Positions 3,577 through 31,227 of a stretch of 64,000 nucleotides of DNA are shown here, piece after piece. The DNA is from Methanomassiliicoccales archaeon. Its GTDB lineage: Archaea; Thermoplasmatota; Thermoplasmata; Methanomassiliicoccales; UBA472. Each line of letters begins with the position of its first letter. The stretch's first letter is position 1. Both the position numbers and the translations under genes were made by a program. Below the pieces are notes generated by a model. The model made no database searches, was not told the origin of the DNA, and saw only the letters and a list, made by a program, of their open reading frames with translations. Location of the stretch: assembly GCA_028682895.1 (NCBI GenBank), contig JAJRAK010000032.1, positions 62,001 to 126,000 of the forward strand, given 5' to 3'.

Positions 3577-5199
3577 TCAGACCTCGCAGACCTTGCCTTC
3601 ATCTCCGTCGAGGTCGTTCTGCGTCATTCCGGCCAGGACATCCTTCGGGGTCCCCATGGCCACGACCTTGCCGCCCTTCATGAGCGCTACGCGGTCGCAC
3701 GTCGCCAAGATGAAGTCCATGTCATGGCTGACGATGAGGAACGTCTCGTTCAGTTCCTTGCGGGCGTGAAGAACGGACTTCGCCACCGCCTGACGGGTGA
3801 TGGGGTCCATCGTCCCGGTCGGCTCGTCGAGGATGACGAAACGCGGTTCGATTATCATGGTGCGTGCCAGGGATATGCGCTGCCTCTCGCCCACGCTCAA
3901 TGCGTCGGGATAGGCGTACAATATACGGTCGACCTCCTTGGGCGTGAAACCGACACCTCGCATGACCTGGATGGCCTTCATCTTGGCAAGCTCCTGCGGG
4001 AGCTTCATTCCCAGGCATACGGTGAGGTTCTGCAGCACCGTGTTGAACGGATAGAGCGCGTTCTCTTGGTGCATTATGCCGATGTATTGAGTGGCGCGGC
4101 CTCTGCCTTCCTCGCCCATATCGGACATGTTGATCCATTCTTCCCCGATGCGGACCAGTACGTCGCCGTGTGTCGTAGGGGTTATACCAGATATCATTCG
4201 GGACAATGTTGTCTTCCCTGCTCCACTAAGACCGATGAGACCGAATATCTCCTTATCGTTCACATCGAACGTGACATCGTCCACGGCCTTGACGACCCCC
4301 CGGACGATCGAGTAGTAATATTTCTTGGCCCCGGCCACGCGTATTACAGGTTGGCCGACCTGGACCTCCAACCCCTTCTCTTTCTCGTAGATGACATCGA
4401 AGGCCTTGGTGATCTCTTCGGGAGTGCCCTCGGCCTTGATCACCCCGTCCTCCAGCCAAATGGCGCGGTGGGACAATAGTGCGATGGCCTTAGGCCAGTG
4501 GGAGGTGACGATCATGGACATGCCCGTGTCCTTGGCCGCCTTGATGAGCGCCTTGTGAACGATATCGGCGGTCTCGGGGTCCAGCGTCCCGGTCGGTTCG
4601 TCCGCCAGGAACAGAAGTGGGTCGCGGGCGAGCTGCCTTGCCAGGACGGTCCTCTGTTTCTCCCCACCGGAAAGGTCACGGGCTATGTGCATGGTGCGGT
4701 GGGTCATGTTGACCATCTCCAGCAACCTTATGGCCCGTTCCACCTTCTTCTCGTCCGACTTTTCCTTCATCGGTTCGAACACGTTCTCTATGACCGACAG
4801 GTCACCGAACAGTGCGAACGTCCTCTGCAACATGATGGCTATGCGCCCGCGCATCACCGTGCGCACTGGGTCCCTCTCGTCCAAGGCCCAGAAGTCCACC
4901 TCCATTATCTTAGTGGGCTTGCCGCACTTGGAACATACCGCCCCTGGAGAGGGCATGTCTATCCAGCCGCAGCTTGCGCAGTGATTGACACGATAGATGA
5001 TACGACCGGAGTCCGGCTTGTACTCACGGTTCCCCCTCAGGGCGTTGATGAGGACCGACTTGCCGCTACCGCTTTTTCCGATGAGGCCGAGCACCTCACC
5101 GGTGTGAACTTTAGTGCTGATATCCTTCAGTACCAGGTTTCCATTGAAGCTCTTGGAGACCTTGTCCAATACTATGAAGACCTCTGCACTCTCAGCCAT
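3577..5199 (-). CDS. atwA: MCR activation component A2, twin ATP-binding cassette protein
   Basis: A 540-residue soluble protein with two ABC domains and no membrane segments, the pattern of component A2, which supplies ATP-driven steps in MCR activation. Walker A of the first cassette is at residues 41-48 (GKSGSGKS), with signature [10 protein letters not shown]; the second cassette has GLSGAGKTT (about residue 325) and signature [12 protein letters not shown]. Between Walker A and the signature of the first cassette, C74, C77, C89 and C92 form a CxxC-x11-CxxC knuckle that could hold zinc or an iron-sulfur cluster. It is the first gene of the atwA-mcrC unit. Upstream lies a 114-bp divergent promoter region shared with the regulator at 5314. 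Confidence 0.95.
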
Positions 5200-5287
5200 A
5201 CGAGTTTGCCAATGATTATGGCGATTATAATACTTTTCCCGTTAATGACATCTGGCCTTAACGATTGCAGTCTTGTGTAAGATATTT

Positions 5288-5308
5288 ATGGATGGATTAT
5301 ATATCCAA
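5288..5308. promoter_or_regulatory. Palindromic element of the ATGGATGGA family, between atwA and a regulator gene
   Basis: Left half-site ATGGATGGA is perfect; after spacer TTA the right half is TATATCCAA, 6 of 9 matches to the perfect half TCCATCCAT seen upstream of mcrB. The site ends 5 bp before the ATG of the regulator at 5314. An AT-rich TATA candidate (about 5281-5289) lies at or upstream of its left edge, so bound protein would block that promoter if the gene is leaderless. The atwA start is 89 bp away on the other side. A role in autoregulation is an inference. Confidence 0.55.
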
Positions 5309-5313
5309 CCATA

Positions 5314-6279
5314 ATGTCAATGTCCTTCAATTCCTATTTTGCCGGGGGGCCAACACCGAAGTTCAACGCATACCACATTTGGAAGGCGCATCAGGTCATC
5401 TCCAAAGAAGGCCCGATAGGGCGCAAGGCGCTGGCGGACGTCCTTAAGATAGGCGAGGGGAGCACTCGGACCATCCTCGACAAGATGATGAAGGAAGGGT
5501 CGATCGAAAGCTCACGACTGGGCATCACCATCACTGACCGGGGCAGGCGCAAGCTCGACACGTCTGGCATTGACGTACGACAAGTGGACCTCTCCGACCT
5601 GACCCTGGGCAAGTTCAACTGCGCGGTCCTGATCAAGGGCATGGCCGCCCGTGTGCGCATGGGATGCGAGCAGAGGGACGAGGCCGTGCGTGCCGGTGCG
5701 GTCGGAGCCACCACCCTGGTGGTCGAGAAGGGAAGGATCGTGTTCCCGGGGGACGAGGAGTTCCCGGAGCAGATACTGGTCGCCCCCCTGCGCAACTATT
5801 TCCGCATGGATGATGGCGATGTGATCGTCATCGGCTCCGCTTTCAGCTACGATGCGGCGGAAAGAGGTGCGGTCACTGCGGCCCTGTCATTGATCAACCT
5901 CAGCAAGAGATGCTGGAACGAAGGGACCAACATACTGAGCCAGGATACCGAGGCCGATGACCTGCGCTGCCTAGCATTGGCGATACATGAGCTGTTAGGT
6001 CGGTTGCCTGTCACCATGCGCAGCCGCAACCAGCTGGGAGTGCGCTGTGAGGAAGGAGAGGTCGTCGATACTCAGTTCACCGGCCCCATGCTCGAGGAGT
6101 CCCTGAAGAAGGGCACCATCATACGCCGGATCTCCACCAGCGGACCGTATAGAGGGATGCCGATAATCGCCGTCCCTATCATGAAGAAGAAGGAAGCGAT
6201 CGCCGTGATCGCCACCATGGACCTGGGGAAGGCGTCCTTCGAAGAGCTCTTGAACAAGCTGGCGAACATACGTTCCTGA
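5314..6279 (+). CDS. Winged-helix transcriptional regulator with DUF4443/DUF2111-like domains
   Basis: A 321-residue soluble protein. Residues about 15-75 form a winged helix-turn-helix (GRKALADVLKIGEGSTRTIL as the helix pair). A middle domain, about 90-185, contains CAVLIKGMAARVRMGCEQRD and resembles DUF4443. The C-terminal domain, about 205-320, resembles DUF2111, known mainly from methanogens, and looks like a ligand sensor; it has no metal motif I can identify. The gene is divergent from atwA-mcrC and lies close to mcrBDGA. Its own leader carries a copy of the ATGGATGGA element shared with mcr, a corrinoid protein and a methyltransferase gene, which makes it the first candidate for the protein binding that element. 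The family names are from memory and moderately sure. Confidence 0.75.
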   Translation: MSMSFNSYFAGGPTPKFNAYHIWKAHQVISKEGPIGRKALADVLKIGEGSTRTILDKMMKEGSIESSRLGITITDRGRRKLDTSGIDVRQVDLSDLTLGKFNCAVLIKGMAARVRMGCEQRDEAVRAGAVGATTLVVEKGRIVFPGDEEFPEQILVAPLRNYFRMDDGDVIVIGSAFSYDAAERGAVTAALSLINLSKRCWNEGTNILSQDTEADDLRCLALAIHELLGRLPVTMRSRNQLGVRCEEGEVVDTQFTGPMLEESLKKGTIIRRISTSGPYRGMPIIAVPIMKKKEAIAVIATMDLGKASFEELLNKLANIRS

Positions 6280-8079: not shown

Positions 8080-9744
8080 TTACTTGGCGGGGATGATTGC
8101 GGTCCTCTCACCAGCAGGCATGAACTCCCTCAGGCAGCCGCGACCAAACTCTTTGGTTATGTTCGCGAAGTCGAAGGGCAGGTTCTTGTCTGCGAAGGCG
8201 ATCTTGACCAACGGGTTGCACACGAAGGCGTCGCCGCGAGCGGCGTGGGGCGCCATTGCGATACCGGTGTATCCGGGCAGGTGTCCCACGTTCATGGCGT
8301 AGATCGGGTAGTTCGGACCGCGCAGCTCGTGCGGCAGGCCCTCGTCGCTCCTGTAGGAGAACGAGTTGGCTGCACCGCAGTTGTCCTGCAAGTCGTATCC
8401 GTAGAACCCGAGCCTTCCGAGCCTCTCCCTGTGCTGGTACATGGACAGATACCATCCGTTGACACCAGCGTTGGCGTTACCAGTTGCCATCGCGATACCG
8501 ATACCGGTAGCTGCGGCGGCGACAGTGGCCCTCTGGGACCCACCGAAGTGGGCTTCCATGGCGGCCGGGTAGCGCTCATACATCTCCAGGGCGTAGGAGT
8601 TGATCTCGGAACCGAGCTTCTCGATCAGGTCGGAGCTGGGCTTGCTCTTGCAGAACCCGCCGTACTTGCTCTTTATGTGATCGACTGCCCAGTAGGTGTA
8701 ATCCTCCAGGATGTTGTCGGTATAGGCTGCGGTGGCGTACTGAGTGAACCCGACCCCGCCGGACATGTATGATCCGAGGTAGATCTGGTCGAACACCACT
8801 GCACCCAGGGCAACAGCTTCCAGGGATGCGCGCGCGGGGTCGTCCGGCTTGGTCCTGGTGCTCTGCACCATGTCGGCCATTACACCGAACGGGATTCCAC
8901 CGGGCTCGTTGGGGCTCCTGGCCCTCCTTGCGGGCATCATGGTACCCATTTCCACCACTGCGGCGTGCTTGGCGGCGAAGGCGAAGTCAGCGATTGCTGC
9001 CTCACCGGCTGCTAGCCTGTAGGCGGTGATGAAGGCCATGGATATCTGCATCGCAGAGTGCCTGGATATGGTACCACCATCGCACACACGTCCAACGATG
9101 GACGGGACACGTACGACCTGCCACAGCTTCTTGCCGACAGCGGCCTTCAGCTGCTTGGCCTGGTCTGCGGGGAACTCCTTGTTGATGTCGATGACGAAGC
9201 ACTTGTCGATCTCGTCGATAAGCTCATCGTCACCAGAGAACACCTTTACGTAAGAGTCCTTCACGCACTCCGGGCATAGCTCGGCCATGTGCTCCTGGAC
9301 AACTGCTCCGCCAGGCATAGTGTGGTTAACTGCCTCTAGGTAGCGGTTGATGGTCTCAGGGGTAACTTCCTTTGACAGCCTCTTCTCGATAACGTTGTGG
9401 GCGACATCCAGACCGACGATAACGGTCCTGCGTATGTCATCCCAGCACTGCTGCATAGCAGCGTTGTTGACCCAGTGTAGGTCATCGGCCTCGCCATATA
9501 TGTCAGTGTGGGACAGCTGGTAGGGCATCAAGACCCTCTGGCCGAGCGCGACACCGACATCCTGGTTCATCATGGGGATTCCACGGGCCTTGGCGATCTT
9601 GTTCGCCTGCTCGACCCACTCCCGCTTCCTCTTCGACTGTCTCCAGCCTCCGTAGGAATAGTGCGAGGAGCGGACCTCCGTGGGGTCCTCCTTGAACTTC
9701 TTGTGCATGGCGGCGATGAACATCTTGTCCTTTTCCTTCGCCAT
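8080..9744 (-). CDS. mcrA: Methyl-coenzyme M reductase subunit alpha
   Basis: A 554-residue McrA, the catalytic subunit that reduces methyl-CoM with coenzyme B to methane. By alignment with the M. marburgensis enzyme, the axial F430 glutamine is Q150 (AVVQEH). The residues modified in that enzyme are all present: H260 (N-methyl-His), R274 (methyl-Arg, in [12 protein letters not shown]), Q404 (methyl-Gln, GGSQR), G449 (thioglycine, FYGYD), D454 and C456 (LQDNCG). Whether each is modified here is unknown, though tfuA and ycaO for the thioglycine lie nearby. The start has a strong Shine-Dalgarno, AAGGAGG, 7 nt upstream and overlapping the end of mcrG. Confidence 0.98.
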
Positions 9745-9746
9745 AT

Positions 9747-10529
9747 TTAATCCTCCTTAACATCGAAGGGCTTGAAGCCACACTTGGTCCTGAGGGTGTG
9801 AATCCTAAGGTTCTGCCTCATTACCTCTTCATCGTCCCTCATGTCCACACCGTCGGCGCGGAACATGGTGGTATGGTCCTTCAACCACTTCTCGGGCATA
9901 GGCTTTCCGACTGGGACCGGCTTGTCCAACGGGACACCGACCTGGTCCTTCACGTACTCGACTTCTCCCTTCTTAGCGTTCCATCGGAACCGCTGCCAGG
10001 CGTCGAACATCATTCCGTTCTGGTCAAGCCTGACGGCGTGCCCGTGAACGGTCGCTCCCCTGATACCAGTTCTTGCGGTATCGAAGGTCTCGTTGTCGAT
10101 GAGTTCCTTGGCGACCTTTTCGACGTCCCTCTCCCTCATCTCGATGATCTGCCTTCCGGACAGGGTACCGGTATCAATTCCTCTGTACCTGCACATGTAC
10201 ATCTGAGCCCTCACGTAGGGGATTATGGGGGCCCAATACACGGAGTCAGTGAACTGAACGTACCTGATCCTGTCACCCTTCTTCGCACCTTCTATGGGCT
10301 CGACCAATGCCCTTATGGGGCAGTCGGGCTCGTTACCCTCCTCGAGCGGCGGGTGGATGGTGGCGTAGTCAGAACCGGGGGTCCTGTGACCCAAGATCTT
10401 GACGACGTCGTCCATGGGAATGTCACGGAGCTTCTCCAGCTTGACGCTGGGGTCCATGAATCGCCTCCTGTTCTTGGCGGGCAGGGTGGTGCCTGGATAG
10501 AATTGTGCTTTGTACTTTGTCTTAGCCAT
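9747..10529 (-). CDS. mcrG: Methyl-coenzyme M reductase subunit gamma
   Basis: A 260-residue McrG of full family length. Typical blocks are [55 protein letters not shown] and the [20 protein letters not shown] region that contacts F430 and coenzyme M. It packs in the (alpha-beta-gamma)2 hexamer. It lies 1 bp from mcrD and 2 bp from mcrA, so it is fully coupled within mcrBDGA. No mcrC lies between mcrD and mcrG, unlike mcrBDCGA operons. Confidence 0.98.
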
Positions 10530-10530
10530 G

Positions 10531-10953
10531 TTATTTCACCAATCCTTTGTTATAATCTGTAGTAGTCGGCTTGAACTTCGAGTATCTGCCTACCTCCAAA
10601 TTAAAACTGAACGGAAGAACTTCCTTACAAACAGCTTCGATGTCCTTCATGGCCTGCGGTACGAGATCGATATCGCATATCTCGACGAAGATGCGCCCGA
10701 CCTGGACCGTAAGCTCGATCTCCTCGCCCTTGACCTTTATCTTCTTGCGTTCCGGATGATTGACAGGGCCACCAGTGCCAGGACCGGCCTTTATGATAGC
10801 AGGCAGGCCCTCGCCCTGGATGTTGATCTGTCTGACGTTCTTCACGGCGTACAGCTTGTTCAGCAATAGCTCCGTGGTGTCAGCGAATAGCAATCTTTCC
10901 GGGAAGATGAGTATCTCGGGCAGGGGGACCGATTCAGAGGTAGACTTGCTCAT
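10531..10953 (-). CDS. mcrD: Methyl-coenzyme M reductase operon protein D
   Basis: A 140-residue McrD, an accessory protein found only with MCR. It associates with MCR but is not part of the mature enzyme; a chaperone-like or F430-related role has been proposed. Recognisable blocks are [20 protein letters not shown] and [14 protein letters not shown]. It sits between mcrB (2 bp) and mcrG (1 bp). Its length is slightly short of many family members. Confidence 0.95.
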
Positions 10954-10955
10954 GT

Positions 10956-12284
10956 TCAGACCAGCTCCTTCAGCTTCTTGGCCTCCTTACCGACCATCTT
11001 CATCGGGCTCTTGAACTCCGGGATGTCACCGAACACTTCCTTCAGGATGAGGGAGGTGTTCTCGGCGCTGAAGTACTGAGTACCAGCGTCCAAGGCGCAT
11101 CCAGCAGCGATAACCGGGTTGACGGTTCCCTTCGCGTGTCTGGTAACCACGTGGTTTCCGTGGAACAGACCCGGGCCGCCTCCACCATAGATAGAGTGGC
11201 TGAAGAAGGACATACCGACCGCGGTACCCATTGCCCTGCCGTAGTCTAGTCCAGGCAGGCTGGTCTCATGCTCCACCAGGTCGTTGAAGTACAGAACGGT
11301 GGACGGGATACCTTGTGCTGCCCTGGCGGCACCGATGTTCACGCATATTGCGGACAGCATACCGGCGGCAACGTAGGCGTTCCATAGCGGGTAGTCGTTG
11401 GTGGTGTACTCAACGAATCCGGATGGGAACTTCTTTCCCTTCTTGATTACCTTGTCTTCCAAAGCCCTTCCGACCATGGACGCGACGACATCACCGACAG
11501 TGCCGGTCTTGCCGTTCTCCTTGACCCAGCTATAGGCCAGGTTGTTGGCGTTCAGGCCCTGGTAGGCCAGGGACAACAGGTGCTGCCTCTCGAAGTTACC
11601 GACAGCGTCACCCATTTCGTAGGCGGCTGCGGTCTCGTATATAGAGGACAGAGCGGCTGCGTTCATGGCGTTCCTGCCAGTCAGCATGACGATGTGGTTC
11701 GCGGTGATGTTCCTCAGAGCGAAACCGGTTCCCTCGTTCAGCTGCGGTACATCAAGGATGGTCTTCAGGTTGGATCCCAACATGTTGATGGTCTGCGGGT
11801 ATCTTCCCCAGACTGCTCCCTTGACCATCGAGGCCTCGAACATGTTCACATCGAACTGGTCGATTATGGCCTCAGTGACGGCGGCTGCTACGGCGGTGAA
11901 TCCGGTCGTGTACTCGGCACCAGCGTCAATCCTTACGCTGGGGCAGGTAACGACCATCCTCTTGCCTTCGGCCATCGTCCTGATCTCGGTGTCGTCATCC
12001 TTGCTGACCTTGAGAATGTCTTTGATCCTCTTGCCTAATTTGTCAGCGTTCGCCACTACAGCGACGTTCAAAACCCTGCCAGGGACGTTCAATCCGCCAA
12101 CCGCTCCGGTCTTGAGACCCTTCTCAATACCTTCTAGGTTGACAGCGATGGTCCTCTTTGTCAGAGAGATGGTTCGCTTAATGGCTGCGTTGTTTAAAGG
12201 ACTTATAGCGTCCAGAGGCACATCTTTCTCGATTATTTTGCCTCTGTCGTCATACAAGTCCACCTTGTCCTTGTATTTTGCCAT
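10956..12284 (-). CDS. mcrB: Methyl-coenzyme M reductase subunit beta
   Basis: A 442-residue McrB, first gene of the mcr operon. Family blocks include KYKDKVDLYDDRGKIIEKDV, LEGIEKGLKTGAVGG and, near the C-terminus, FFSHSIYGGGGPGLFHGNHV, which lines the F430/coenzyme B channel. A strong Shine-Dalgarno (AGGAGG) precedes the ATG by about 6 nt. The promoter lies in the 272-bp gap upstream: a TATA-like element at 12381-12391 and, 6 bp beyond, a perfect palindromic element at 12397-12417. The inferred leader is about 75 nt. Confidence 0.98.
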   Translation of the reverse strand: MAKYKDKVDLYDDRGKIIEKDVPLDAISPLNNAAIKRTISLTKRTIAVNLEGIEKGLKTGAVGGLNVPGRVLNVAVVANADKLGKRIKDILKVSKDDDTEIRTMAEGKRMVVTCPSVRIDAGAEYTTGFTAVAAAVTEAIIDQFDVNMFEASMVKGAVWGRYPQTINMLGSNLKTILDVPQLNEGTGFALRNITANHIVMLTGRNAMNAAALSSIYETAAAYEMGDAVGNFERQHLLSLAYQGLNANNLAYSWVKENGKTGTVGDVVASMVGRALEDKVIKKGKKFPSGFVEYTTNDYPLWNAYVAAGMLSAICVNIGAARAAQGIPSTVLYFNDLVEHETSLPGLDYGRAMGTAVGMSFFSHSIYGGGGPGLFHGNHVVTRHAKGTVNPVIAAGCALDAGTQYFSAENTSLILKEVFGDIPEFKSPMKMVGKEAKKLKELV

Positions 12285-12364
12285 TTTTTACCTCCTTTTC
12301 GATGACTCGGTCACCTCAAGTAGATTTACGTCAAACTTGAGAAAACCGGCTCCCCTTGCGGCCT

Positions 12365-12391
12365 CTACAATGTGTAGACATAATATATAGT
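12365..12391 (-). promoter_or_regulatory. mcr operon core promoter
   Basis: On the minus strand a TATA-like element ACTATATATTA lies at 12381-12391. Transcription would start roughly 25 nt downstream, near 12360, giving a leader of about 75 nt before mcrB. A short inverted repeat, CTACA then ATG then TGTAG, occupies 12365-12377 between the TATA box and the inferred start. Positions are read by eye; no start-site data are available. Confidence 0.6.
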
Positions 12392-12396
12392 TGATG

Positions 12397-12417
12397 ATGG
12401 ATGGATAGTCCATCCAT
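12397..12417. promoter_or_regulatory. Perfect palindromic operator-like element upstream of the mcr operon
   Basis: Half-site ATGGATGGA, spacer TAG, half-site TCCATCCAT: a perfect 9-3-9 inverted repeat. It lies 6 bp upstream of the mcr TATA box, a position typical of archaeal activators that help recruit TBP/TFB. Imperfect copies with the same 9-3-9 geometry occur at 5288, 31176 and 31207, and a partial copy at 24815, all in intergenic regions next to methanogenesis genes. Confidence 0.7.
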
Positions 12418-12420
12418 ATT

Positions 12421-12556
12421 AAACAATAGCTAATTTTTTAGTGATTCCCAGACGTGAGAAGCACTATTTTAACAGTATAAATTTTTAAATAAATCATAAT
12501 TCAAATATTTAATTGACCTTCTCAATTTTAAATATTTTTTAATGAGTTAAATAATT
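12421..12556. other. AT-rich intergenic stretch between the mcr promoter and tfuA
   Basis: About 136 bp of strongly AT-rich DNA with many short A and T runs, following the tfuA stop. It probably holds the tfuA terminator (T-runs on the minus strand) and upstream promoter DNA for mcr. I see no open reading frame with a ribosome binding site and no convincing RNA structure. Confidence 0.4.
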
Positions 12557-14448: not shown

Positions 14449-14928
14449 CTACCGTTCATCATCGTTCTGCGCCAGGGGGATGACCAGATCGAACATGGCA
14501 TCCTCGTTCATGGCGATGCGCTCGATCAGGATGTCCACCTCGACCCTCTGCACGCCGGGGATGTTGACTATCTTGTCCTGTATCAGATCATACAGGCTGT
14601 CCACGCTGGTGGAGTAGACCTCGCAGACCAAGGAATGGTCTCCGAATACCTTGTATACATATCGTATCCCGGGGTACTTCTTCAGCTCCTCGATCACCGC
14701 AGATAATGGTGCGCCGACCACCTGGAGACCTATATGGGCCCGCATGAGGCCGACCTTGGAGGTGTTCAGCTGCATCGTGTAAGCGTTGATGTAGCCGTCC
14801 TTCTCCAAACGGGAGATACGTCTGCTGACGGTCGCCTTGGACACCTTCAGCTGCTCAGCTATGACGCTCAGGTTCTCCCGGGCGTTCTTGCGTAGCATCC
14901 TGAGTATCTCAAGGTCAGTGGTGTCCAT
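14449..14928 (-). CDS. Lrp/AsnC family transcriptional regulator
   Basis: About 159 residues from the ATG at 14928 (MDTTDLEILRMLRKNAREN); an in-frame start 30 bp upstream would add MICKLFAGRP and looks unlikely. An N-terminal winged HTH (LSVIAEQLKVSKATVSRRIS) is followed by a RAM-type ligand-binding domain with VFGDHSLVCEVYSTSVDSLY and IVNIPGVQRVEVDI. Such proteins usually form dimers to octamers and sense amino acids. It lies 45 bp upstream of ycaO in the same direction, so it may be co-transcribed with ycaO-tfuA. Target genes are unknown. Confidence 0.9.
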   Translation of the reverse strand: MDTTDLEILRMLRKNARENLSVIAEQLKVSKATVSRRISRLEKDGYINAYTMQLNTSKVGLMRAHIGLQVVGAPLSAVIEELKKYPGIRYVYKVFGDHSLVCEVYSTSVDSLYDLIQDKIVNIPGVQRVEVDILIERIAMNEDAMFDLVIPLAQNDDER

Positions 14929-15045
14929 TGGTCGTCCTGCAAATAATTTGCATATCAAGCAACATTTTGAGGAGTATTTGGAACTATGTCAGGAATTTTA
15001 TGAAAAATAATTGAACATCCGGATTACGAACCGGTCCGGCCCCGA

Positions 15046-18040: not shown

Positions 18041-18191
18041 TTTATCCCTTCCGAGGGCGTATTACAAAACGTGGGGTATTTATCAATTGCTCCCCTGTTG
18101 TTGAAAATGGTATGACTTATAAAGTTTGTCCAGACGGCCTATAGCCATATACTTGGTCTTTGATGGTTTATATATAATTGAAATTAAATTC

Positions 18192-18971
18192 ATGATCGGA
18201 GCGATTTCTTTGGACGAAGGATGGCCGATCGCCAGCGGGGACTATGTGATTGGTAGCGCCACTTCGCCCGTGGCCGTCCTGATAGTCGGCAGGGGCGCCG
18301 TGGACGTGCCCACCGACCTGTTCCGCATCAAGGGCATATTGAAGACCGAGAACATAGGATTGGAGAAGGTCATTGCTAACATCGTCTCCTGCCCGGCCAT
18401 CAGGGTCCTGGTCATTTGCGGCAAGGAAGAGTTCGGACATTTTCCTGGAAAGGCCATCAACGCCTTGATGAAGAACGGCGTGGACGAGCACCGCCGCATA
18501 ATAGGGACGAATTCCGCCATCCCTTTCCTGTGCGACATCTCATCGGAGTCGGTGGAAAGGTTCCGGCAGCAGGTGGAGATCATTGACCTTCTGGATTCGT
18601 CCAATGTCAACGAACTTGTCGAATACGATCCGATATACGAGTTCACTGAGAGGAGCAGAGAAGGCCTAATATCGAAGCTCCGCCACCTGAGCTCGCAGCA
18701 TTTTGACCCCTTCCCGGGAGACCCCATCATCACTGGTACCAAGGCCATGCGGGGAGATGGCATGGAGATAGCAAAGCAACTGCACAAGGCATCGGACGAA
18801 TTCATAACCCCGATGCTACGACTCCCGTCCGAAGGACTGAACACAGGCATGGGCATGGTACTGATATCGGAGGAGTTCGGTGTCGTCATCGAACCACTGC
18901 AGGGCAGGGTGCTCGCGGTGCCGTCCATTGAGTTCGCCTTGAGGTTAAGGTCATATCTTACAGGTGTGTGA
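18192..18971 (+). CDS. MtrA-like corrinoid protein (tetrahydromethanopterin S-methyltransferase subunit A family)
   Basis: A 259-residue protein. Residues 10-130 match MtrA: GWPIASGDYVIGS, KTENIGLEKVIANIVSCPAI, RVLVICGKEEFGHFPGKAIN and VERFRQQVEIIDLLD. MtrA carries a cobamide whose cobalt is ligated by a histidine (H84 in M. marburgensis); the equivalent here is H83 in GHFPGKA. The rest of the protein is polar with no terminal transmembrane helix, so it looks soluble, unlike MtrA of the membrane complex. No upstream Shine-Dalgarno is visible; a TATA element about 25 bp before the ATG (near 18168-18177) fits a leaderless transcript. The MtrH-like gene follows 1 bp after the stop. Confidence 0.85.
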   Translation: MIGAISLDEGWPIASGDYVIGSATSPVAVLIVGRGAVDVPTDLFRIKGILKTENIGLEKVIANIVSCPAIRVLVICGKEEFGHFPGKAINALMKNGVDEHRRIIGTNSAIPFLCDISSESVERFRQQVEIIDLLDSSNVNELVEYDPIYEFTERSREGLISKLRHLSSQHFDPFPGDPIITGTKAMRGDGMEIAKQLHKASDEFITPMLRLPSEGLNTGMGMVLISEEFGVVIEPLQGRVLAVPSIEFALRLRSYLTGV

Positions 18972-18972
18972 C

Positions 18973-19857
18973 ATGTTCAAATTCCAGACAGAACAGAAGG
19001 AGATCGATATTGCCGGGAGCATCTTCGGCGGACAGCCCGGTCGCCACCGGACGGTCATGGTCGGATCGCTTTTCTATCCGAGGCACACCATCGTCATCGA
19101 CCCGACAAAGGGCATCGTGGACATGACCAAGCTGGACCAGCGCCTGGAACGGTATCGTAAGGCCACTGAGAACTGCCAGTGCCCTTCCGCGTTGATGCTG
19201 TACGCCGAAAGCGTGCAGGCGGCAAGATCATATCTGGAAGCTGTCTGCGATAGGATGCCAGGTCCGCTCTTCGTCGATTCGGGCAGCAGCGAGGTGAGGC
19301 TATCTTTCCTCAGACATGCGGAGGAGATGGGGCTGCAAGACCGCATCGTCTATAACACCATCAACGCCGGGCTGTCCACCGAGGAATCGGACTCCCTCAG
19401 GTCATCACCGCCGAAGAACGCGGTCGTCCTGGCCTTCAACCCCCGCGGGGACGATGTGAAAGGACGGATATACATGCTGGAGAGCGGGGACGACCTGCTG
19501 CCCATGGGACTGCTCGATATGGTCAATGAACTGGGCATCAAGAACGTCCTGTTGGACGCGGCCGTCACCTCACCGCAGATGAGCGCCGGCTCGGCACTGC
19601 GCGCCATAATGGTGGCCAAGGCCAAATGGGGCATCCCCACCGGATGTGCGCTACATAACGCGGTCGAATGCTTGGACCTTAGCAGCATGGAGGACCCCAA
19701 GGATGCTAGGAGAAATGTCGACAGCTCCGCGGTCGCCATCAGCATCATGGCCGGTGCCGATTATGTCGTGTACGGGCCGATGGAGTATGCGCAGAGGGCC
19801 ATGCCAGTAGCGGCCTTCGCCGACCTTATGCTGTCCCAGTCGGCACACGACCTTTAG
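18973..19857 (+). CDS. MtrH-like methyltransferase (tetrahydromethanopterin S-methyltransferase subunit H family)
   Basis: A 294-residue protein starting MFKFQTEQKEIDIAGSIFGG, the family start, so the ATG at 18973 is preferred over an upstream GTG. Other MtrH blocks are MVGSLFYPRHTIVIDPTKGI, FVDSGSSEVRLSFLRHAEEM, YNTINAGLSTEE and IPTGCALHNAVE. MtrH is a TIM-barrel enzyme that passes a methyl group between a pterin and the MtrA corrinoid. Beside it is an MtrA-like gene, but there are no MtrB-G genes anywhere in the window. It may serve methyl transfer to or from a pterin, or another methyl donor as in MtrH-like bacterial MtgA. It overlaps the convergent metallo-beta-lactamase gene by 4 bp. Confidence 0.88.
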   Translation: MFKFQTEQKEIDIAGSIFGGQPGRHRTVMVGSLFYPRHTIVIDPTKGIVDMTKLDQRLERYRKATENCQCPSALMLYAESVQAARSYLEAVCDRMPGPLFVDSGSSEVRLSFLRHAEEMGLQDRIVYNTINAGLSTEESDSLRSSPPKNAVVLAFNPRGDDVKGRIYMLESGDDLLPMGLLDMVNELGIKNVLLDAAVTSPQMSAGSALRAIMVAKAKWGIPTGCALHNAVECLDLSSMEDPKDARRNVDSSAVAISIMAGADYVVYGPMEYAQRAMPVAAFADLMLSQSAHDL

Positions 19858-20714: not shown

Positions 20715-22350
20715 CCTTCTTTACGATCTTCATGGAGGCGAAGTCGTAAACATCCTCGGGGCATATGGCCTGGCATTTCTTGCATGCGGTTCCGAGGCAC
20801 AGCTCGGTGTTGACCTTGGCCTGGAATTTTTTATTGCCCAGAGAAAGTATCTGCAGCGCCCGCTCGGGACATTCCTTCTGGCACTTCTTGCAGCCGGTGC
20901 ATCCCTCGAACGAGGCCATAAGATAGACGCCTATATCGTCCAGTGTCTTCAGCCCACGTGCGCCAATGACCGGTATATCGGAAGAGACCAGACGGATGAT
21001 CTCCTTCGGCCGCACTATGTCAGGCAGAGGTTTCAGACCAGCGTGTGCAAGCATCTCGTTGTACATCTCCATTGTCATGCCCTCCGTCCAATATGCGATC
21101 TCGTTGACGTATATGTCCTCGAAGACCTTGCTGGTGGCGAACATGATATGCTTGCTGGATATGGCATTGGCCACGTCCTGCATCTTGTCCAGACCGTCAT
21201 CGTCCACCAGTATATCGTAGGACATCATGAGCGAGGTGTTGCCGGCCTGCACGGTCTTGTCCAGAACGCGGGGTATGAGCCCGACCGTCTGGGCCTTGAT
21301 CGGGTCCACGTAAGTACCGGACGCTCCGGCCATGTACATGGTCTTGACGTCCTTGTCCTCGATGCCGACCTCCTCGATGAGGGTGCGGTGCCCGGCGCGG
21401 ATGGCCCCGGTGGCCTTCCCCGCCTCGCGGACGTCCTCCTCGTTGAAGTAGATACCATTGGTGAGGTGGATCTTGTGGTCGGGGGTCATTATGTTCGGGA
21501 GCTTGATTATTCCAGCTTCCAAGCCGACGGCCATGGCCGCGACCACACCGGTGCCGGTGATGCCGCGGGCGATGACCCCGTCGATCTTGGTCTCTGCACC
21601 GGTGATAGGGTCGACCAGGGCGGACCTGACCGGGTGCAGGCTATCGTTTAGAACTACGTTGTACCATCGTCCGTTCTCCCCAGGTATTATATCGGATATT
21701 GCCTGAGGTGCGGCCAGCATACCGTAATCGATGGACTGACCCTCCATCGCCGGACCTGCGGCGGCCGAGCCAGTATATAGCTCGCCCTTGTAGAACAGGC
21801 CCATCTCGGCGTTGGTGCCGTAATCGGTGACCATGCAGGTCTCCTTCTTGTCCATCAACCCGGTCTTCATGATCATGGCCAGAGCATCAGCGCCGATCTC
21901 ATGGCGTATGGACGGGGGAATGCGGACCTCGGCGGTCTGCCTTACCGACCTCATGCCCAGCTCCTCGGCCTTGATAGCATGGGCCTTCCTTTCCGGGACC
22001 TTCACGTTCAATTTCTTCAGCAGGGTCTGGCCGGCGAAGGCGAGGTCGCGTATCTCGATCTTCTCGAACATGGACATCTGGGCGGGATTGCCGCAAACAG
22101 AGACACGTACGATCTCCTCGGGCTTGGCGCCCATGGTGGAGATGAGCTTGTCCACTGTCTCGATGATGATTCGGTGACCGACATCGGCACCGTTCTCCAT
22201 CCAGAAATGCAGATGGTCCATGATGTTGGCCCCCGGCAGGGGATGCCTCATGGTTATGGCCGTGGCCAGTATCTTCCCATTCTTGTCCAGATCGACCAAG
22301 TGTCCCCGGTAGCCACTTGTTCCCAGGTCAAGCGCGACTCCTAATGCCAT
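20701..22350 (-). CDS. ramA: Reductive activator of corrinoid methyltransferase proteins
   Basis: A 549-residue RamA-family protein. It uses ATP to reduce inactive Co(II) corrinoid proteins of methylamine-type methyltransferases to Co(I). The N-terminal part has the ASKHA-type nucleotide blocks ALDLGTSGYRGHLVDLD and VTDYGTNAEMGLFY. The C-terminus carries two [4Fe-4S] motifs: C484, C487, C490, C494 and C518, C523, C526, C530. It diverges from the CobW gene at 22523. The corrinoid protein at 30472 is a plausible substrate. No ATGGATGGA element is visible upstream. Confidence 0.93.
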   Translation of the reverse strand: MALGVALDLGTSGYRGHLVDLDKNGKILATAITMRHPLPGANIMDHLHFWMENGADVGHRIIIETVDKLISTMGAKPEEIVRVSVCGNPAQMSMFEKIEIRDLAFAGQTLLKKLNVKVPERKAHAIKAEELGMRSVRQTAEVRIPPSIRHEIGADALAMIMKTGLMDKKETCMVTDYGTNAEMGLFYKGELYTGSAAAGPAMEGQSIDYGMLAAPQAISDIIPGENGRWYNVVLNDSLHPVRSALVDPITGAETKIDGVIARGITGTGVVAAMAVGLEAGIIKLPNIMTPDHKIHLTNGIYFNEEDVREAGKATGAIRAGHRTLIEEVGIEDKDVKTMYMAGASGTYVDPIKAQTVGLIPRVLDKTVQAGNTSLMMSYDILVDDDGLDKMQDVANAISSKHIMFATSKVFEDIYVNEIAYWTEGMTMEMYNEMLAHAGLKPLPDIVRPKEIIRLVSSDIPVIGARGLKTLDDIGVYLMASFEGCTGCKKCQKECPERALQILSLGNKKFQAKVNTELCLGTACKKCQAICPEDVYDFASMKIVKKGEDA

Positions 22351-24814: not shown

Positions 24815-24829
24815 GGATGGTCCATCCAT
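24815..24829. promoter_or_regulatory. Partial ATGGATGGA-family element upstream of an MtaA/MtbA-type gene
   Basis: The right half-site TCCATCCAT (24821-24829) is perfect. The preceding GGATGG matches the mcr site at GGAT and G, so 14 of 15 bases agree over this stretch, but the outer left half is absent. It also forms its own small inverted repeat GGATGG-T-CCATCC. It lies 82 bp upstream of the start codon, with a weak TATA-like stretch following. Confidence 0.5.
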
Positions 24830-29456: not shown

Positions 29457-29566
29457 CGAGCCTCATTGATGACCATGTTCATCACTTATAGAATTTACGC
29501 ATGTAATTCCATCCATAATATTAATTCGAATGGATGTTCAGAAGGGAACGACTAGCGCGCTGCGCC

Positions 29567-30379
29567 TCATTTGACCATGCCGTTTCCCTGATGGTCTGAA
29601 CTTGTCGATCGGGCCGTCCAAAGGTAAAGTTCGTTCACCAGCTCCAGTGCCTTCATCCCTTTATCGGAAAGACCGTAATCCCCACGCTCACCGTTCTGGA
29701 TTATCATCCCGGATGCGGTTAGTCGCTGCAGGTGGAACAGAAGGTTACCACCCCTGAGGTTGGTGAGCACGGAAAGTTCCGAGAACGAGCACGGTGCCTT
29801 GGCCAATGATTTCAGCACCGTTATCCTCTGGACGTTGGATATCGGCTCTAACAGATCTTTTACCACTCGGTCCTCCGGGAGCACATCTATGCTGTTGCGC
29901 AGCTCCTCCTTGGTTCGATAAAGGCCAAGAGCTCGCATGAGCTCGGTCTGTTGTTGAAAGATGGAACCGACCTCGCCTATGCATCCATCGCATCTTCCTT
30001 TGATGACATTACCATCGAAACGACCCAATTTCTCGGATTGCAGCAGGACGTCCTCATCCGATATCCGCGGCCTCTCCAATAGCAGCAGGTTCTCATCGAG
30101 GAAACCGATGAACTCCTGCCTGCACTCCTTGCGCATCTCACATCGTTTCGGCATGCCCGCATCCAGCTGGGTGATGGCCTTGTCGCGGGCCTCGTCACGC
30201 AAGATGCGAAACAGCCCGGAACGGTCGTTGTTTGAGACATTGATGCTGGTCAGCAATGAGGTGATACGCTGCAGCTCGATGCTCATCTCATCCATCCGCT
30301 CCTTGATCTGAGATACTTCGTTCTCTAGCGGGTCCGGTCTAGTGGCCATCGTATCACTCAAGGTCATCTCAATGACCAT
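29567..30379 (-). CDS. Winged-helix regulator with coiled-coil N-terminus and four cysteines
   Basis: A 270-residue soluble protein. Residues about 15-50 look like a coiled coil (NEVSQIKERMDEMSIELQRI). The middle has CEMRKEC (C-x5-C) and CDGCIG (C-x2-C), four cysteines that could bind a metal or Fe-S cluster. The C-terminal third is an ArsR-like winged helix (SFSELSVLTNLRGGNLLFHL, then ASGMIIQNGERGDYGLSDKG). It lies between the six-repeat membrane protein and the corrinoid protein, all on the minus strand, and may control one or both. Start choice among MVIEMTLSDTM is uncertain. Confidence 0.75.
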   Translation of the reverse strand: MVIEMTLSDTMATRPDPLENEVSQIKERMDEMSIELQRITSLLTSINVSNNDRSGLFRILRDEARDKAITQLDAGMPKRCEMRKECRQEFIGFLDENLLLLERPRISDEDVLLQSEKLGRFDGNVIKGRCDGCIGEVGSIFQQQTELMRALGLYRTKEELRNSIDVLPEDRVVKDLLEPISNVQRITVLKSLAKAPCSFSELSVLTNLRGGNLLFHLQRLTASGMIIQNGERGDYGLSDKGMKALELVNELYLWTARSTSSDHQGNGMVK

Positions 30380-30471: not shown

Positions 30472-31113
30472 TTACTTGTGCCCGATCAGGAGCTTGGTTG
30501 CCACGGCAACGGCTTCGTTGGCATCGTAGCCCCAGCCGTCCGCGCCAATGCTCTTGGCGAAGTCTGCGGAGGTAGCGCCGCCACCGACCATGGTCTTGAT
30601 CTTGCCCTTCAGGCCACCCTCGGCCAGCATCTTCTCGATCTCCTTCATTCCCGCCAGGGTGGGGGTCATGAGGGTGGAGGTCGCGATTATGTGGGCGTTC
30701 TCGTCCTTTGCCTTCTGAACGATGTCCTTCAGGGGTACATCGCGGCCGAGGTCGAAGATAGTGTTTCCAGCTCCGGTCATCAGGGCCTTGACGATGTTCT
30801 TACCGATGTCGTGCACATCTCCCTCTACAACGCAGAGGACGACCTTACCGGCAGCTCCTGCAGATGCAGCGTCGAGCTTCGGCAAAGCCAGGTTCAATCC
30901 CTGGTACAGGGTCTGAGCGGACAAAAGAACCTGGGGCAGGAAGTACTCCTTCTTCTCGTACTTCTCACCGACGATCTTCATGGCCTCGCTCAGTCCGTTG
31001 AATATGATCTCCTTAGCGGAGACTCCCTGATCGAGGAGTGCCTGGGTAGCTCCCTTGGCTTCCTTGATCTTCCCCTTTACAACGATGTCAATCAATGCAT
31101 CCATGTTTGCCAT
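30472..31113 (-). CDS. Corrinoid protein of a methyltransferase system (MtaC/MtbC/MttC type)
   Basis: A 213-residue protein with an N-terminal helical cap domain (residues 1-80) and a B12-binding Rossmann domain with base-off motif D99-x-H101-x2-G104 (EGDVHDIGKNI), then STLMTPT and MVGGGATS. It carries the methyl group between a substrate methyltransferase and a MtaA/MtbA enzyme. The start MANMDALID has Shine-Dalgarno GGAGGA 7 nt upstream. Usually such a gene lies beside its substrate methyltransferase (mtaB, mtmB, mtbB, mttB), but none is in this window, so the substrate is unknown. Two operator-like palindromes and a clear TATA box precede it. Confidence 0.9.
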   Translation of the reverse strand: MANMDALIDIVVKGKIKEAKGATQALLDQGVSAKEIIFNGLSEAMKIVGEKYEKKEYFLPQVLLSAQTLYQGLNLALPKLDAASAGAAGKVVLCVVEGDVHDIGKNIVKALMTGAGNTIFDLGRDVPLKDIVQKAKDENAHIIATSTLMTPTLAGMKEIEKMLAEGGLKGKIKTMVGGGATSADFAKSIGADGWGYDANEAVAVATKLLIGHK

Positions 31114-31154
31114 TAATATTTCCTCCAAAGAAGTTTTCTGCGTCCAAATTTCAA

Positions 31155-31168
31155 TATATTATTATAAA
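31155..31168 (-). promoter_or_regulatory. TATA box of the corrinoid protein gene
   Basis: The minus strand reads TTTATAATAATATA over this stretch, about 45 bp upstream of the start codon. It lies 7 bp from the nearer palindromic element at 31176, almost the same spacing as at the mcr promoter (6 bp). Confidence 0.6.
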
Positions 31169-31175
31169 CCCTTGC

Positions 31176-31196
31176 ATGGATGGATGCAACATCCAT
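31176..31196. promoter_or_regulatory. ATGGATGGA-family palindromic element, copy proximal to the corrinoid gene
   Basis: Perfect left half ATGGATGGA, spacer TGC, right half AACATCCAT with 7 of 9 matches to TCCATCCAT. It has the same 9-3-9 layout as the mcr site and lies just upstream of the TATA box of the corrinoid protein gene. Confidence 0.65.
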
Positions 31197-31206
31197 ATGG
31201 TCTACA

Positions 31207-31227
31207 ATGGATGGATTAATAATCCAT
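31207..31227. promoter_or_regulatory. ATGGATGGA-family palindromic element, copy distal to the corrinoid gene
   Basis: Perfect left half ATGGATGGA, spacer TTA, right half ATAATCCAT with 6 of 9 matches. It starts exactly 31 bp from the start of the proximal copy, close to three DNA turns, so bound dimers would lie on the same face. The AmrS-like gene ends 43 bp further on. Confidence 0.62.

Follow-up and report, generated by a model that had tools for sequence, protein, structure and literature searches.

A conserved palindrome shared by the mcr operon, a corrinoid-protein gene and the gene of a candidate DUF4443-DUF2111 regulator in Methanomassiliicoccales

A palindrome in front of mcrB, a corrinoid-protein gene and a candidate regulator gene

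A palindromic operator with the core GGAT-N9-ATCC is shared by the mcr operon and a corrinoid-protein gene of a Methanomassiliicoccales archaeon and recurs directly in front of a gene for a winged-helix protein carrying the domains DUF4443 and DUF2111, which probably binds the palindrome, activates the mcr and corrinoid genes and represses its own gene. Methyl-coenzyme M reductase produces nearly all biological methane, and the Methanomassiliicoccales include methylotrophic methanogens of the rumen, the gut and wetlands. A search of one open-access library, in which absence is no proof, retrieved no described mcr regulator for this order, in agreement with the preliminary description of this DNA, which knew of no regulator with such a site. 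For the control of mcr, our analysis proposes one defined operator, a particular protein as the candidate binder and a small set of targets. It also provides a functional hypothesis for DUF4443 and DUF2111, two domains of unknown function; no paper naming either of them was found in the same library.

The stretch analysed, referred to as the window, comprises 64,000 nucleotides. Upstream of mcrB it contains a perfect inverted repeat, ATGGATGGA-TAG-TCCATCCAT, read from the sequence exactly as had been claimed. The gap to the presumed TATA box on the minus strand is 7 bp, essentially the 6 bp given before. The features of the mcr and corrinoid-protein promoters are as follows.

12397..12417, no strand: mcrB operator, ATGGATGGATAGTCCATCCAT, core GGAT-N9-ATCC; relatives keep it immediately upstream of their TATA box
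12380..12389, minus strand: presumed TATA box of the mcr operon, TATATATTAT; read from sequence, position kept in relatives
8080..12284, minus strand: mcr operon, presumed target (Pfam MCR_alpha, MCR_gamma, MCR_beta), consisting of the next four genes
10956-12284, minus strand: mcrB
10531-10953, minus strand: ORF in the mcrD position
9747-10529, minus strand: mcrG
8080-9744, minus strand: mcrA
31176..31196, no strand: proximal operator of the corrinoid-protein gene, ATGGATGGATGCAACATCCAT, 7 bp upstream of the TATA box
31207..31227, no strand: distal operator of the corrinoid-protein gene, 31 bp farther upstream
31160..31168, minus strand: presumed TATA box of the corrinoid-protein gene, TTTATAATA; in register in orthologs
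30472..31128, minus strand: gene for a stand-alone methyltransferase corrinoid protein (TIGR02370-like), presumed target

When up to three mismatches were allowed, the repeat was matched five times in the window (starts at 5288, 12397, 21727, 31176 and 31207) against 0.03 expected, and five matches were reached in none of 100 shuffles. The match at 21727 lies inside a coding region and was dropped as almost certainly due to chance; a half-site at 29508 has no partner at the correct distance. In a pattern search of the whole genome (1.66 Mb, 63 contigs) the same threshold yielded nine matches versus none for the reversed pattern, so that the sites are in excess of the control across the genome. 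The copies described previously at 5288, 31176 and 31207 are real, but the register they share is GGAT-N9-ATCC and not the 9-3-9 arrangement, a description valid for the mcr copy only. The unit common to the sites in relatives is likewise GGAT-N9-ATCC, mostly TGGAT-N9-ATCCA, and outer bases lengthen the repeat. Exact TGGAT-N9-ATCCA occurs four times in the genome, each time within the window; since about 1.6 occurrences are expected by base counts (an estimate), the argument is carried by position and conservation rather than by the genomic count. A partial copy at 24815, proposed earlier as a further member in front of an MtaA-type gene, is not one, because its spacing differs and the MtaA orthologs in five other genomes of the genus lack it. 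The association with methanogenesis genes thus stands for mcr and the corrinoid gene but not for MtaA.

Conservation of the operator within the order

Exact sites were present in the mcrB promoters of all six families, f1 to f6 (18/18 in f1, 1/1 in f2, 4/4 in f3, 1/1 in f4, 7/13 in f5 and 1/16 in f6), where 0.065 promoters were expected for all families together from mononucleotide shuffles. Outside f6, the Methanomethylophilaceae, 31 of 37 promoters carried the site as opposed to 1 of 16 within it. Most f6 genomes have retained the regulator's own site and lost that at mcr, and control of mcr is therefore not universal. Among orthologs of the corrinoid gene, 55 of 68 had the full site together with the TATA pattern, 87-128 bp upstream of the start of homology, and the operator pair 31 bp apart is kept in the genus.

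At TATA distance, GGAT-N9-ATCC gave about 72 rows versus 3 for the reversed pattern in 22 genomes of the family. For TGGAT-N9-ATCCA the figures were 171 versus 10 in 147 genomes (99 versus 0 outside f6), sums in which some sites were entered twice through alternative TATA readings. The gap between target sites and TATA box is constant at about 7 bp and contains a BRE-like stretch; all TATA boxes and start sites are unmapped readings of the sequence. When loci were fetched (30 from the family and 30 across the other families), the downstream gene was mostly mcrB, the corrinoid ortholog or a second corrinoid operon, and the remaining loci were mostly the regulator's own site seen from the opposite strand or matches inside genes. 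In syntenic DNA of 20-36 kb from each of eight genomes, exact motifs were confined to three places, namely the regulator, mcrB and the corrinoid gene. Because related genomes are not independent, these counts express consistency more than a number of independent events, and more weight falls on their spread over six families and over proteins down to about 40% identity. Comparison of the upstream regions of orthologous genes thus indicates an operator conserved across the Methanomassiliicoccales. With this and the genome-wide excess over the control, the idea of a shared operator withstands both refuting conditions named in the preliminary description, and the observation of the palindrome is confirmed.

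Two sites of this genome outside the window are similarly spaced from a TATA box. One (C21:31711, locus L002) precedes genes for a corrinoid protein and an MtaA-like protein, the other (C53:146486, L009) precedes mtaC-mtaB. The latter was seen in this genome only and was absent from eight of eight related genes tested in the family; mtaCB was dropped as a conserved target, and its site appears to be a lineage-specific gain or a chance match. Among the loci fetched, no hdr or mvh gene was seen. A regulon operator for the core of methylotrophic methanogenesis had been envisaged; mcr and a corrinoid gene do share one, but the regulon looks narrow, with mcr, the regulator gene and one or two operons for corrinoid proteins as its members.

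Several further observations concern these regions. In genome G038 (L406, G038:C5:31000-39000), three operators 2.2-2.6 kb apart are followed by a hydantoinase-like gene and two corrinoid/MtaA-like operons, whose corrinoid proteins resemble each other. The arrangement looks like a duplicated, regulated substrate cassette. Positions 3577-32370 of the window form a conserved island of atwA, the regulator, mcr, TfuA/YcaO, an Lrp-type gene, mtrA/mtrH-like genes, a RACo-like activator, MtaA-like genes and the corrinoid gene, and their order is constant within the genus and for the most part also in other families; the MtrA-like and MtrH-like genes (18126-19857) lie near the RACo-type corrinoid activator. 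The mcr 5' leader (12282-12360, minus strand) has a GCAAGGGG box just 3' of the presumed transcription start and, behind it, a hairpin in which compensatory changes occur: one of its pairs is GC in nine sequences and AU in eight. The box is also kept in most f6 promoters without the palindrome, where a hairpin-like repeat was recognized by eye. Rfam gave no match in the window, hence none at the palindrome and none for this box and hairpin. In f1, f2, f3 and f5 the mcr palindrome is directly preceded upstream by another conserved block (about 12418-12431; minus strand ATTGTTTA-like), possibly the site of a second factor.

The candidate regulator and its own promoter

The site at 5288 lies between two divergent genes.

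5288..5312, no strand: autoregulatory operator, ATGGATGGATTATATATCCAACCAT; ends 1 bp before the regulator start codon
5314..6279, plus strand: candidate regulator, winged helix (PH0730-like_N) + DUF4443 + DUF2111
3577..5199, minus strand: atwA (component A2; TIGR03269), divergent from the regulator across the operator

This 25-bp repeat, ATGGATGGAT-TATAT-ATCCAACCAT, is longer than the others, as each side carries the GGAT unit twice. It overlaps a TATA-like box (about 5282-5289) and extends 3' of it. For atwA, which might be activated from this palindrome, the likely TATA box as read from sequence is about 60 bp away. The regulator was present in 144 of 147 genomes and in 30 of 30 genera of the order, the three genomes without it being 67-68% complete. 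Scanning of distinct regulator upstream regions from -50 to +20 for the exact core revealed it in 77 of 103, against 0.06 expected from mononucleotide shuffles. In all 77 the site ended 1-8 bp before the start codon, and in 68 a TATA-like box stood 5' of it, typically 29-31 bp from the start codon, a distance which suggests that the regulator mRNA is leaderless. The own-promoter site occurred in all larger families, including many f6 genomes without the mcr site and the corrinoid ortholog, and its conservation reached proteins about 40% identical.

The regulator, a protein of 321 residues, belongs to the DUF4443 winged-helix family (PF14544, 97.3 bits, cut-off 27), with a PH0730-like N-terminal winged helix (PF22167, 42.8 bits, cut-off 30.2), and to the DUF2111 family (PF09884, 96.4 bits, cut-off 27). 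In the AlphaFold2 model (pLDDT 82.5), the winged helix resembles the DNA-bound domain of CggR, with an rmsd of 0.8 A over 64 columns in Foldseek. DUF2111 modelled alone (pLDDT 85.9) is predicted to adopt a GAF/PAS-like sensor fold; its best Foldseek matches, which include GAF domains, are weak (E 2.6e-4 to 1e-3, TM about 0.5). DUF2111 was found in 27 of 27 sampled genomes of the order and in 0 of 167 other Thermoplasmatota. Among 14 control genomes it matched in Methanocaldococcus jannaschii and Methanosarcina acetivorans, and DUF4443 matched only in Sulfolobus acidocaldarius. From this distribution, the DUF4443-DUF2111 fusion is confined to this order within the Thermoplasmatota and control genomes sampled. 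Most genomes of the order also encode a short DUF4443 paralog of about 195 residues without DUF2111 (G000:C6:4834-5118, relatives L273-L288), which in f1 lies directly behind another gene and has no palindrome.

Proposed mechanism and alternative explanations

The ORF at 5314-6279 is singled out as the likely regulator gene by the site in its own promoter. We infer that its product is the binder, that the sign of regulation differs between promoters and that a ligand is involved. In this likely scheme, the palindrome would be the operator of a one-component regulator, a dimer of which would occupy the two GGAT half-sites. TrmBL1/Tgr of the Thermococcales recognizes TATCAC-N5-GTGATA, and its sites upstream of BRE/TATA are associated with activation, those downstream with repression (PMC4158304). 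Here, too, the operator lies upstream of BRE/TATA at some promoters and downstream at others, with TATA boxes read from sequence. Application of this position rule would give activation at the mcr and corrinoid promoters; at its own gene, bound between TATA box and start codon, the regulator would stand in the way of RNA polymerase and thereby limit its own level. DUF2111 may respond to a signal that reflects the supply or flux of methyl groups.

The same protein could instead be a repressor everywhere, which would block access of TFB at the BRE of the mcr and corrinoid promoters until a signal frees it. Target sites do abut the BRE/TATA region, and MsvR has been described as a BRE-blocking repressor (PMC3729527). 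However, the constant gap of about 7 bp with its BRE-like stretch corresponds to the placement of described activators (PMC4158304, PMC5937170), and the target sites are placed unlike the regulator's own site, which makes repression throughout unlikely. We give a still smaller chance to a different binder, either the short DUF4443 paralog, an Lrp/AsnC protein (14449-14958) or an ArsR-type protein (29567-30379). The recognition helix GEGSxRTI is nearly identical in paralog and regulator, so that both could share a site, the Lrp gene is syntenic in eight of eight genomes compared, and the ArsR-type gene adjoins the corrinoid gene. Yet the short paralogs examined, from f1, f6 and other Thermoplasmatota, had no palindrome in front of them, and none is found at the Lrp gene; G136, G005 and G010 keep the site at the corrinoid gene with no ArsR-type gene found next to it. 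In G038 (99% complete), the DUF4443 search gave a single protein, the long form, and the autoregulatory site is kept (L202, record UBA593, taken as the same genome). Taken together, the own-site, paralog and G038 evidence for a DUF4443-DUF2111 binder is strong but circumstantial.

That the palindromes are no operator at all, arising by chance, as a mobile repeat or as an RNA hairpin, is hardly conceivable. Slippage could create GGAT repeats, and one-mismatch matches to the loose pattern in the genome are mostly background-like, but the sites are kept at three promoters with proteins as low as 40% identical, their spacing to TATA is fixed and control counts are near zero. The mcr and corrinoid copies, moreover, lie outside the transcript because they are upstream of the TATA box. 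Returning to activation by the DUF4443-DUF2111 protein, we tentatively consider a wider role, which we hold to be possible rather than probable: the protein might be an order-wide master switch of methyl-reducing methanogenesis, in which DUF2111, limited to methanogens in the genomes sampled, directly senses a methanogenesis metabolite or the methyl-corrinoid state and couples mcr to methyl supply, and it might have been rewired away from mcr in most Methanomethylophilaceae.

Comparison with known regulators

The candidate regulator resembles PH0730 of Pyrococcus horikoshii (PDB 2p8t) in its winged helix and DUF4443 (phmmer E 1.6e-11, Foldseek TM 0.77). Unlike the regulator, PH0730 has only about 200 residues and is too short for DUF2111; the one open-access paper found to name it lists its family and gives no function. 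MsvR of methanogens binds a TTCG-N7-9-CGAA repeat in its own promoter, which is taken as self-repression (PMC3729527). Like MsvR, the candidate regulator belongs to methanogens and has an inverted repeat in its own promoter, but the repeat here is GGAT-N9-ATCC, and the MsvR targets discussed there are redox-related. By its own-promoter motif, the protein is not MsvR. TFB-RF1 of Pyrococcus furiosus recognizes TCTG-N5-CAGA and activates through TFB recruitment (PMC5937170). A palindrome upstream of the BRE is common to both systems, but motif and targets are unrelated. MreA of Methanosarcina acetivorans, a TrmB-type protein of 139 residues with no binding motif identified, has a role comparable to the one proposed here, the global control of methanogenic pathways including methylotrophic genes (PMC4158304). 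The TrmB-type DNA-binding domain (PF01978) was absent among the Pfam matches of the regulator at E values up to 0.001, and membership in the TrmB family was rejected. From TrmBL1/Tgr the system therefore differs in protein family, and it differs also in its motif and in its targets, which belong to methanogenesis instead of sugar metabolism. As in TrmBL1/Tgr, for which autoregulation of Tgr has been proposed (PMC4158304), one palindrome serves a metabolic regulon.
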